Assembly: GCF_014042165.1 (NCBI RefSeq)
Contig: NZ_JACDZE010000001.1
Location: 1,262,595-1,326,594 of the forward strand
DNA from: Moheibacter lacus
GTDB lineage: Bacteria; Bacteroidota; Bacteroidia; Flavobacteriales; Weeksellaceae
Length of the DNA: 64,000 bases
Direction of reading: 5' to 3'
Numbering within the stretch: position 1 is the stretch's first letter; each line of letters begins with the position of its first letter. A program made the position numbers and the translations under genes. The notes under the pieces were generated by a model. The model was not told the origin of the DNA. It saw nothing but the letters and a program-made list of their open reading frames with translations, and did no database searches. Positions 12,452 to 15,495 of this stretch are shown in pieces.

Positions 12452-13663
12452 CTATAAAAATTCATTTTTTAAAGTCTCAGAAATGATAAAACCTTCGCTC
12501 CAACAAGCTTGAAAATTAAATCCACCCGTGATGGCGTCAATATTTAATATTTCTCCGGCGATGAACAAATTGGGGACAATTTTGCTTTCCATCTTTTTGA
12601 AATTGATTTCTTTCAAATCCACACCGCCCGCCGTTACAAATTCTTCTTTGAACGTACTTTTTCCTTTTACTTGGTAAATTCCTTTAGTTAATTCTGAAGC
12701 TATTTTTTCCAATTGATTTTTGGTCAAATGGGAGTAAGTTAAATCCGTCGGAATGGGAGTGATCTCTAAAATCCTTTGCCAAAATCGTTTGGGGAAACCA
12801 AAGGGATTGATTTTATAAACGGACTTTTTTCCGTTTTCCAATTTGAATTCATTTAAAAATTCACAACATGCTTCATATTCTTTTTGGACGAAATTGATTT
12901 TGATTTCAAATTCATAATTCAAACGATTCAATTCAATCGCTCCCCAAGCTGAAAGCCGTAAAATTCCCGGTCCACTCAGCCCCCAATGCGTGATCAACAT
13001 CGGTCCTTCTGCTTCCATTTTGATTTGTGGAATCGAGATTTCTGCCCATTCGAAACTGATACCCATCAAATCCTTCAATCGTTTATCTTTGATGTTAAAC
13101 GTAAAAAGCGAAGGAATGGGTTTGACAATGCCATGACCTAAATTTCGAAGTATTTCCATCGATTTATTGCTGCTTCCCGGCGTGAAAATGACGGTTTCAA
13201 ATTTATAAGAACCTGATTTCGTTTCAATTAAAAACGAATGCTCTTTCTTAGAAATTTTTTGAACCGTTTCGCTCAATTTGATTTCCACCAGATTTTTTTC
13301 TGTTTCATTCATCAAACATTCGATAATGCTCATGGAATTATCCGAAACCGGAAAAATACGGTTGTCATCTTCTATTTTCAATGGAACTTTACGGCTTTCA
13401 AACCACTCCATCGTGTCTCCTGGTTGGAATTGATGGAAAACACTCCGCAGTTCTTTTTTGCCACGGGGATAAAATTCTACCAATTCTTTAGGGTCAAAAC
13501 AAGCATGCGTCACATTGCACCGACCGCCTCCGGAAACACTGACTTTCTGAAGAGGAGCAGAAGACTGTTCAAACAAAACCGTTTGACTTCCCAATTCCTT
13601 TCCCAAATTGGCTGCAGTGAAAAATCCGGCGGCACCTCCGCCGATGATGGCTATTTTTTTCAT
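12452..13663 (-). CDS. BaiN/HI0933-family FAD-dependent oxidoreductase
   Basis: A 403-residue flavoprotein of the HI0933/YhiN/BaiN family. The N-terminal dinucleotide fold reads IIGGGAAGFFTAANLG, followed by SVSGGGRCNVTH near residue 45 that is diagnostic for the family. The C-terminal part has TAGGVDLKEI and LFIAGEILNIDAITGGFN, where FAD is contacted. Members bind FAD and NAD(P), but the physiological substrate is unsettled outside gut bile-acid reducers, so bile-acid activity should not be assumed. It stands alone between two repeat-filled gaps. Confidence 0.88.
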   Translation of the reverse strand: MKKIAIIGGGAAGFFTAANLGKELGSQTVLFEQSSAPLQKVSVSGGGRCNVTHACFDPKELVEFYPRGKKELRSVFHQFQPGDTMEWFESRKVPLKIEDDNRIFPVSDNSMSIIECLMNETEKNLVEIKLSETVQKISKKEHSFLIETKSGSYKFETVIFTPGSSNKSMEILRNLGHGIVKPIPSLFTFNIKDKRLKDLMGISFEWAEISIPQIKMEAEGPMLITHWGLSGPGILRLSAWGAIELNRLNYEFEIKINFVQKEYEACCEFLNEFKLENGKKSVYKINPFGFPKRFWQRILEITPIPTDLTYSHLTKNQLEKIASELTKGIYQVKGKSTFKEEFVTAGGVDLKEINFKKMESKIVPNLFIAGEILNIDAITGGFNFQACWSEGFIISETLKNEFL

Positions 13664-13716
13664 TTTTTCGAAGTTCGAATTTCGTTTTGCGAATTTCGCT
13701 TAAAATTTGAATCTAT

Positions 13717-13985
13717 AAAAATGTGTTTAGTACACGACAAAAATTGTATATGGTTGATGAAAATAACTTTAACCACATAGGGACAGAGTCTTTTTTGAAG
13801 ATTAAGTTTTTATAGTATCCGCCTTTGGCGGTATAGGGTTATATAATTCATTTTCATGATTCTATGTTCCACGAAAAGTGGAAACTATTTTAACTAATGC
13901 GCACTGATAAATAAGAAAAAACTATGTGTCTATGTGGTTGCATTACAATTTATTATATTTTTTGTCGTGTACTGAAAAAAATGTG
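13717..13985. mobile_element. MITE-like non-coding element with TIRs and 9-bp target duplication
   Basis: The 251-bp core (13726-13976) begins TTTAGTACACGACAAAAA and ends with the reverse complement of TTCAGTACACGACAAAAA: 18-bp terminal inverted repeats with one mismatch. It is flanked exactly by the direct repeat AAAAATGTG (13717-13725 and 13977-13985). A second inverted pair, AACCACATAG (13771-13780 and 13930-13939), lies inside. The centre has hairpins CCGCC-TTT-GGCGG (13819-13831) and TTCCAC-GAAAA-GTGGAA (13867-13883). There is no ORF, so it would need a transposase supplied elsewhere. It occupies much of the 618-nt gap before folD. Confidence 0.72.
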
Positions 13986-14213: not shown

Positions 14214-14250
14214 AACATTAAACCTTAAACTTTGAACTTTAAACTTGAAA
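14214..14250 (+). repeat. TTAAAC/TTGAAC short tandem-like tract upstream of folD
   Basis: A run of eight- to nine-base units of the form CTTAAACTTTGAACTTTAAACTT. It is the same sequence type as the two 35-bp repeats in the arg operon, read on the opposite strand. The rest of the gap from 13986 to 14213 is AT-rich and holds nothing I can identify. Confidence 0.5.
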
Positions 14251-14281: not shown

Positions 14282-15157
14282 ATGCAAATTTTAGACGGTA
14301 TCAAGTTGGCCAAAGAAATCAAACAAGAAATTAAAAGTTCTGTTGAAGAAGCTGTGAGTCAAGGGAAAAGACCACCTCATTTGGCGGCTGTTTTGGTCGG
14401 GAATGATGGTGCGAGTCAAACTTATGTGAACAATAAAATCAAGGATTGTGAATTTGTTGGTTTTAAATCTTCATTGGTGAAATTGCCCAATACCGTTTCC
14501 CAAACCGAATTGATCGAAGAAATCGAAAAATTGAACAATCAAGAAGATTTGGATGGTTTCATCGTCCAACTTCCGCTTCCTTCTCAAATCGACCAAGAAG
14601 AAATCATCGAAGCCATCGATCCTAAAAAAGATGTAGACGGATTTCATCCGGAAAATTTTGGGAAAATGGCGTTGGATATGAGTACTTTTTTACCGGCAAC
14701 ACCTTTTGGGATTTTAGAAATGCTAGAACGCTACGAAATCCCGACCAAAGGAAAACATGCCGTGATCATCGGTAGAAGTAGAATCGTAGGTCGTCCGATG
14801 AGTATTTTGATGGGAAGAAAAGATTTTCCGGGAAACAGTACCGTTACCTTAACTCACAGTAATACCGAAAATTTAGCCGAATATACTCAACACGCCGATA
14901 TCGTCATCACAGCACTCGGTGTTCCCGGGTTTTTAAAGGCCGACATGATCAAAGAAGGCGCTGTGGTCATCGACGTTGGAATCACCAGAGTCGATGATGA
15001 TTCTGAAAAAGGATATTCACTAGTGGGTGATGTGGATTTTGAAAATGTTAAAAATAAAGCTTCCTGGATCACGCCTGTGCCGGGTGGAGTAGGCCCTATG
15101 ACTCGGGCTATGTTGTTGAAAAACACACTTTTAGCCTATAAGAGCAATATTCGATAA
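14282..15157 (+). CDS. folD: Bifunctional methylenetetrahydrofolate dehydrogenase/cyclohydrolase
   Basis: Interconverts 5,10-methylene-THF, 5,10-methenyl-THF and 10-formyl-THF in the cytoplasm, supplying one-carbon units for purines and formyl-Met-tRNA. The 291-residue length is standard. Signatures visible are the catalytic YVNNKIKDC (Tyr and Lys near residue 50), DGFIVQLPLP near 97, the dinucleotide-binding GRSRIVGRPM near 165 and PVPGGVGPMTRAML near the C terminus. It is a single gene; the following lipoprotein is 74 nt away. Confidence 0.97.
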   Translation: MQILDGIKLAKEIKQEIKSSVEEAVSQGKRPPHLAAVLVGNDGASQTYVNNKIKDCEFVGFKSSLVKLPNTVSQTELIEEIEKLNNQEDLDGFIVQLPLPSQIDQEEIIEAIDPKKDVDGFHPENFGKMALDMSTFLPATPFGILEMLERYEIPTKGKHAVIIGRSRIVGRPMSILMGRKDFPGNSTVTLTHSNTENLAEYTQHADIVITALGVPGFLKADMIKEGAVVIDVGITRVDDDSEKGYSLVGDVDFENVKNKASWITPVPGGVGPMTRAMLLKNTLLAYKSNIR

Positions 15158-15231: not shown

Positions 15232-15495
15232 ATGAAAAGAAGGAATTTTATCAAAAAAGCAGGTCAACTTCTTTTGTTGACTTCCGCAGTTTCAGTTACA
15301 GGAATGTCAGTAATTAGCTGTTCAGACGATGATGATTCGTTTGGAGATGGATACTATGGTGATGGTTATTATGGAGATGGATATTATGACGATGGATATT
15401 ATGACGATGGTTACTATGATGATGGTTACTATGATGATGGTTACTATGATGATGGTTACTATGATGATGGTTACTATGATGATGATGACGATTAA
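15232..15495 (+). CDS. Tat-type lipoprotein with nine DGYY repeats
   Basis: An 87-residue protein of unknown function. The N terminus has a twin-arginine-like motif (KRRNFIKK), a hydrophobic stretch and a lipobox (SVISC, Cys30), so a folded or metal-loaded product may pass through Tat before lipidation. The mature part is almost only acid and tyrosine: SDDDD, then nine units of DGYYG or DGYYD, then a terminal Asp run. The net charge is very negative. The design suggests binding of divalent cations or surface adhesion, but I know no characterised homologue. The terminator just after it implies a monocistronic unit. Confidence 0.75.
   Translation: MKRRNFIKKAGQLLLLTSAVSVTGMSVISCSDDDDSFGDGYYGDGYYGDGYYDDGYYDDGYYDDGYYDDGYYDDGYYDDGYYDDDDD
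15346..15480 (+). repeat. Nine 15-bp in-frame tandem repeats
   Basis: The unit GATGGTTACTATGAT occurs nine times without gaps. The first four units differ at silent or Gly/Asp positions and the last five are identical, so the array looks recently expanded at its 3' end. Units of 15 bp keep the reading frame on copy-number change. Confidence 0.9.

Follow-up and report, generated by a model that had tools for sequence, protein, structure and literature searches.

A two-layered MITE of Moheibacter lacus: IS4-family-type ends round a core that resembles GxxExxY-type word-array units

Several described systems are close to the element reported here. MITECca01 of Cardinium derives from the IS982-family insertion sequence (IS) ISCca4 according to the available part of the source (PMC9769881), and the IS10 subgroup of the IS4 family is listed in the accessible text of PMC2266710 with a length of 1200-1350 bp, CT ends and 9-bp repeats. 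The excerpt of PMC4990558 describes 23S rRNA intervening sequences in which an S23p ORF is bordered by complementary arms. The element presented here lies in a window of 64,000 nucleotides (the whole stretch of M. lacus DNA that was analysed) and is best read, with a rough probability of 0.85, as a MITE with two layers: IS4-family ends placed round a gene-less GxxExxY-type word-array unit, the whole being a stranded non-autonomous transposon. The MITE alone is well supported and of an already known kind, and the added interest is in the inner layer, as the core hints at inserting units of a second kind that has drawn little notice. GxxExxY (TIGR04256/PF13366) is a common nuclease-like family of unexplained role, whose genes lie between arrays that change with the gene.

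The element proper is 251 bp long, and 269 bp (13717-13985) with its target duplications (Table 1). The terminal repeats, TTTAGTACACGACAAAAA and the inverted TTCAGTACACGACAAAAA, are 18 bp long with 1 mismatch, and the 9-bp AAAAATGTG stands precisely at both ends, as the first-pass annotation of this DNA had read them. The second inverted pair and the two hairpins that it placed inside are also present: the pair (AACCACATAG/CTATGTGGTT) is 83% complementary, and its inner word begins about 46 and 38 bp from the ends of the MITE, as calculated from the coordinates. The same annotation saw no ORF in the element, and none of at least 40 aa was found wholly within it; one 180-aa mechanical ORF (13238-13780) enters from outside. 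A GxxExxY gene is absent between the inner arrays, where there is no ORF, and the MITE is therefore at most a gene-less derivative of a GxxExxY-type unit. The neighbours agree with those named earlier: a TIGR00275-type flavoprotein gene at 12452-13663 (minus strand) and folD at 14282-15157 (plus strand).

Table 1 Features of the element and of its target duplications in the window.
Feature	Position	Strand	Basis or remark
Target duplication, left copy AAAAATGTG	13717..13725	.	9 bp, letter-by-letter check
MITE, 251 bp, without transposase, 7 genome copies	13726..13976	+	Genome search, copy alignment, fold z -8.6
Terminal inverted repeat, left, TTTAGTACACGACAAAAA	13726..13743	+	IS4-family (likely IS10-like) end
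Inner word array, left, AACCACATAGGGACAGAG...	13771..13794	+	GxxExxY-type
Hairpin TATCCGCCTTTGGCGGTATA	13816..13835	+	CGCCTTTGGCG-type hairpin also in congener G004
Hairpin GTTCCACGAAAAGTGGAAAC	13866..13885	+	Kept in copies; substitutions in L002, L005, L006, L007
Inner word array, right, ...CTATGTGTCTATGTGGTT	13916..13939	-	Inverted counterpart of the left array
Terminal inverted repeat, right, TTCAGTACACGACAAAAA on the minus strand	13959..13976	-	Letter-by-letter check
Target duplication, right copy AAAAATGTG	13977..13985	.	9 bp, letter-by-letter check

Two word-array-like runs stand beside the MITE, TTCGAAGTTCGAATTTCG at 13667-13684 and CATTAAACCTTAAACTTTGAACTTTAAACTTGAAA at 14216-14250, and a run resembling the former is also found at the matching place in two congeners (G001 and G004). 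Just past folD, at 15232-15495, is a small ORF whose start is signal-like and which contains a DGYYDDGYY tandem repeat.

The locus is the sole place in the window where an exact 9-bp repeat flanks 18-bp inverted ends with at most 4 mismatches, allowing 60-1500 bp between the 9-bp repeats. Chance inverted ends were ruled out by simulation: 30 Markov-1 windows contained 0 such structures at ≤4 mismatches, and 29 in total at 6 mismatches. A search for further copies of the ends, put forward in the first-pass annotation as a check, found seven places in the host genome (2.77 Mb, 13 contigs, 99.79% complete). Searching with the element and short flanks gave 8 matches at these 7 places, the eighth (L008) lying inside copy L003. 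Identity to the window copy (L001) is 79-88% for the other six, a divergence which suggests that the family is old, and when aligned in one orientation the copies have ends and core in common. At ≤2 mismatches, all 7 matches of the 18-bp end pattern in the host genome fall within MITE copies; at ≤3 mismatches there are 17, not above the 26 of a reversed control. Duplications were read by eye from the copy alignment. Two of the seven copies have exact 9-bp duplications of different targets (L001, AAAAATGTG; L002, ATCTTAATG), and the unrelated sequence at L002 eases the worry, voiced earlier, that the window's duplication is A-rich. Two more copies match at 7 of 9 positions (L005, TTTCTTGGC/TTTCTTGAT; L006, AACTTCGAA/AAGTTCGAT), and no clear duplication is seen at L003, L004 (decayed ends) and L007 (6/9; GGAATTAAA/GCAATAAAT), as would be expected if these copies are old.

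An empty site, which the first-pass annotation had named as a further check, is found in three congeners. folD was detected in 5 of the 6 genomes of the genus, the host included, and in G001, G003 and G004 the gene order is that of the window, flavoprotein gene before folD, with a gap that holds no element (G002 is uninformative, its locus ending about at the folD start, and G005 has no folD match). The flanks from the window, joined with one copy of the duplication, align through the join with G004 (CTATAAAAATGTGAATAAAT vs CTATTTAAAATTGGATAAAT). This alignment covers G001 and G004; for G003 the absence was read directly from the gap sequence.

The element has a strong predicted RNA fold (-79.1 kcal/mol, z -8.6), as would be expected of a conserved intergenic structured RNA or attenuator with no transposon involved. 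Long inverted repeats fold well by construction, and the fold here follows from the nested inverted repeats and by itself shows no RNA role. Furthermore, the orthologous gap of three congeners is without the element, the seven copies are dispersed and several of them have target duplications, and there is no Rfam match at the element: in a scan of 20 loci the only matches were Flavo-1 (L152) and an L19 leader (L002). Structured RNA was rejected on the missing Rfam match and the empty sites; empty sites and duplications have already largely refuted this reading, and we regard it as very improbable. What is found is what characterizes bacterial MITEs: a short element without transposase, with inverted ends, a target duplication, 7 copies, an empty site and a related IS.

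That related IS belongs to the IS4 family. The first-pass annotation had proposed a non-autonomous element of a transposase that makes 9-bp duplications, and this is supported by IS4-family elements with the same ends and 9-bp repeats. The 18-bp end with ≤1 mismatch has 59 matches in 25 of 296 family genomes, the host counted, and the reversed pattern has 20 matches in 19 of the 296, with two per genome at most; single matches per genome are partly chance. At L061 and L051 both ends are present and enclose elements of 1211 and 1217 bp with a transposase of 367 or 373 aa. These transposases match NF033591 (IS4 family; 246 and 249 bits, cut-off 152) as well as DDE_Tnp_1. This IS4 transposase was detected in 7 of the 296 family genomes, in other genera, and the IS ends read TTTAGTACA(C/T)GACAAAA. 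Of 14 transposase loci read by eye, 8 have exactly these ends directly flanked by a perfect 9-bp duplication (six in G283, one in G305 and one in G224); the remaining six comprise three with both ends and no exact duplication (L069, L070, L075) and three with one or both ends missing.

The right end of the IS starts CT and the left end TT, or GT in L061, while the window MITE has TT on both sides. The parental IS is like the IS10 subgroup, as far as the accessible text of PMC2266710 defines it, in its 1211-1217 bp, its 9-bp duplications, its CT right end and its YREK-type motif (YRKRWQIETLFRGLK, read by eye in the transposase), and is unlike it in its left end. Because that end is TT or GT, the IS10-subgroup label, taken from table features rather than from a tree, is likely and not proven. 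In the host genome, the IS4 transposase search gave no match at E≤10 and the NF033591 model gave none either (the model detects 7 of 14 control genomes, and is above cut-off in 1). A resident autonomous partner, found by neither, was rejected. An IS with the same ends, for which the first-pass annotation advised looking, thus exists in other genera of the family and was not found in the host genome itself. A 431-bp internally deleted IS4-family element in another family genome (G015:C22:1521-1951; L040/L064) has both ends as well as the start and the tail of the transposase, and shows how such mini-elements can begin.

Short elements with the same ends are also found in four genera other than that of the window. 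Candidate ends were paired at 120-320 bp and accepted when the right end had ≤4 mismatches or the duplication matched at ≥7 of 9 positions, by which 20 of 32 rows were accepted; the twentieth is an overlapping reading of another and is not counted. The resulting 19 distinct mini-elements are 170-207 bp long (nine in G306, four each in G049 and G016, one each in G288 and G132), and 8 of them have exact 9-bp duplications. An inner word of the ACC(A/G)(C/T)A.. type is present on at least one side in 19/19 and on both sides in 15/19, and also in 4 of the 12 weak, unaccepted rows. In one case (L085, G306:C2:31500-32900) a mini-element is nested in another, and its target duplication is the inner word's CCGCAAAAG.

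Among these 19 mini-elements, 22-37 bp separate the IS ends from the start of the inner word, a distance at which a subterminal transposase site might also lie. This would suit a plain IS-derived MITE, in which the inner pair is the element's own subterminal inverted repeat and the likeness to GxxExxY flanks arises from convergence of short A-rich words or from capture in the reverse direction. However, all five IS copies lack an inner word of this type within 90 nt of either end (0/5). Arrays without IS4 ends exist in the same family (L013, L014, L016, L018, L019, L021) and beside GxxExxY genes in many phyla, and the MITE shares with units of congener G004 not only the words but also a hairpin. 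We therefore consider a plain IS-derived MITE unlikely and prefer the two-layered element, whose core resembles array units and probably derives from one. That the second inverted pair is a repeat of another class, linked to GxxExxY genes, was beyond the reach of the first-pass annotation.

The likeness was followed with the motif CTATGTGNCTATGTGGTT. At ≤3 mismatches it has 10 matches in the host genome: seven in MITE copies, two downstream of the only GxxExxY gene of this genome (C1:713885-714205) and one elsewhere. At ≤2 mismatches it has seven, of which six are in MITE copies and one is beside that gene. A reversed control gave 11 matches at ≤3 mismatches, so that the 10 are not in excess and the weight is on where the matches lie, not on their number. 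Compared directly, the MITE core scores 58 against the downstream flank of the resident GxxExxY gene (shuffle maximum 44) and 42 against its upstream flank, which is not above shuffles (maximum 45); its likeness to the flanks of the resident gene is thus modest. The scores against congener G004 are 88, 84 and 84 for L015, L009 and the upstream flank of a decayed GxxExxY gene, with shuffle maxima of 44, 43 and 52, respectively. The flanks of this decayed gene (L138) contain the same word, together with a CGCC(AAA)GGCG-type hairpin that resembles the one in the MITE. The free units L009 and L015 of G004 are similarly built, with the CGCCTTTGGCG-type hairpin in L009 and an imperfect one in L015. 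Of the 8 GxxExxY loci closest to the resident gene, all have ACATAG words upstream and 7 have them on both sides. No IS4 end (≤3 mismatches) was detected at any of 110 GxxExxY loci within about 600 nt or within the whole of a short locus, and the idea that GxxExxY genes themselves carry IS4 ends was rejected.

At the resident GxxExxY gene (L123; G000:C1, ~713,700-714,480), the 27 nt that precede the upstream array, AGCCGCTTAT[T/C]GGGAAGAAATGAAAAA, recur between the two downstream word copies with 26/27 identical, which looks like a duplication of the neighbouring gene's end. The upstream arrays of L118, L123 and L265 start at or near the stop codon (TTTAACC..., TAG...) of the gene before them, as read by eye.

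Matching arrays on both sides of GxxExxY genes are widespread. PF13366 was detected in 17 of the 40 genomes searched, the host counted, and a scan of named genomes with a 20-protein alignment gave at least 554 confirmed GxxExxY places. The best 80 of these were used; by their titles they come from Bacteroidota, Planctomycetota, Acidobacteria, Proteobacteria, Ignavibacteria and others. In an inverted-flank test, the 300 nt upstream of the gene were compared with the reverse complement of the 300 nt downstream. For 75 of the best 80 loci (L197, L205, L224, L227 and L228 were left out for their short flanks), the median score was 38 in true pairs and 20 in GC-matched false pairs, and a score of at least 40 was reached by 32/75 true vs 44/2116 false pairs. 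For the 67 of the best 80 with long flanks, sham flanks were taken 700 nt further out: 48/67 true and 0/67 sham pairs scored at least 30 (Wilcoxon p 1.9e-12), as did 2/67 near-far sham pairs (L226 at 54). The other 19 of the 67 loci fall below 30, though many of those whose sequence was inspected show recognisable words. Among the GxxExxY loci of relatives, 10 of 23 score below 30 (23 of 30 loci, short or partial ones being left out).

The flanking stretches consist of tandem words such as CACAGAG, CACATAG, CATTAAG, CATATAAG, CGCAGAG, CACGAAG and CACAAAAG, which match across the two sides of one gene and differ between genes. Word likeness tracks protein likeness (Mantel r 0.41, 0/2000 permutations; 0.40 allowing for GC) in a set of 45 loci that were selected for clear arrays by a score of at least 34, a correlation which co-inheritance alone would also yield. 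A survey of the map locus in Flavobacteriaceae, where a methyltransferase gene follows map, compares such units at one site: 76 of 80 genomes matched, 30 loci were fetched, and a GxxExxY gene lies between the two genes in 7 of the 30, two of them apparently decayed. In the 23 without a GxxExxY match the genes are 2-135 nt apart in 12 and have other DNA between them in 11. Gene and arrays appear to be gained or lost as one at this site. Where an intact gene is present, much of the extra non-coding sequence looks like word array, and 3/7 occupied loci have an inverted score of at least 30 (55, 41 and 32; the others 29, 21, 14 and 12). Two of the seven hold other GxxExxY proteins (41 and 38% identity with the query) and other words (CACGGATTT; CACTAATTT/CACGAATTT), so that gene and words differ together at one site.

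The same arrangement is seen with another family. Genes of PF05635, the 23S rRNA intervening-sequence protein, were found in 40 of 59 genomes and are likewise flanked by inverted arrays (21/27 vs 0/27 sham; 30 loci, 3 dropped), with different words such as ATTAGAA, TTAGTAA and AATTCGA (L230-L259, relatives). The arrays are thus not specific to GxxExxY. This is the main doubt about a nuclease unit that spreads itself: small inserted ORFs in general may be bordered by such arrays, in which case the nuclease would be one cargo among others and not the engine.

The GxxExxY protein itself has a nuclease-like appearance. D71, E81, K83 and Y99 are invariant in the alignments, and Q95 is invariant in the first and nearly so in the second; we take the set D71/E81/K83/Q95/Y99 to be the pattern of RecB/Cas4-like PD-(D/E)XK nucleases. 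PADLOC Cas4 models match the family weakly (E about 5e-4), and a sequence search for a solved relative gave 0 matches. A model of the L150 protein (mean pLDDT 95.1) has no Foldseek match at E≤0.001, and its best match is SSO0001 (4ic1; E 4.9e-3, TMq 0.55-0.58), a Cas4 protein. This weak structural match suggests that GxxExxY may have a Cas4-like fold.

In the two-layered reading, IS ends and a gene-less array unit would have been joined in an ancestor; an intermediate of this joining was not seen in the host genome. An IS10-like transposase acting in trans would then have moved the 251-bp unit, duplicating 9 bp of the target, and given the seven copies. Its gene may since have been lost from the host genome or may never have been resident, and mini-elements of the same build with other words would have been amplified in other genera of the family.

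On a broader view, which we hold only tentatively, GxxExxY genes, and probably those of PF05635, make up together with their matching arrays a large class of discrete inserting units found in many phyla. In this view the arrays might be recognised by the nuclease of their own unit, which would drive the spread of that unit, and gene-less forms would spread further inside IS4-type MITEs, as in the window. Such recognition is speculative; it is suggested by words that vary from unit to unit, agree on both sides of each unit and track the lineage of the gene. We found no description in the open-access papers searched of array-bracketed GxxExxY or PF05635 units, or of a link between the family and inverted arrays. 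Should gene and arrays prove to be a single inserting unit, GxxExxY proteins would gain a testable substrate and role. The broader view, if true, would also explain where many short intergenic repeats of Bacteroidota and other phyla come from, and would link GxxExxY to PF05635 genes, whose part in rRNA intervening sequences is likewise unsettled.

Compared with the 23S rRNA intervening sequences described in the excerpt of PMC4990558, array units similarly have a small ORF and complementary arms, and the PF05635 genes of relatives have array flanks. Intervening sequences lie in 23S rRNA genes, whereas array units lie between protein genes, for example map and the methyltransferase gene; the window MITE, between two protein genes, does not qualify as an intervening sequence. 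Like MITECca01, as far as the available part of PMC9769881 describes it, the window MITE is short, has IS ends, several copies and a matching parental IS, and an eroded IS is its likely early stage. Unlike MITECca01, it belongs to another IS family and has no parental IS found in its host, and its core resembles a GxxExxY-type word-array unit and not an IS remnant. From GxxExxY units it differs in that the gene is absent, and it is like them in its word arrays, which are of the kind that brackets GxxExxY genes, the resident one included.
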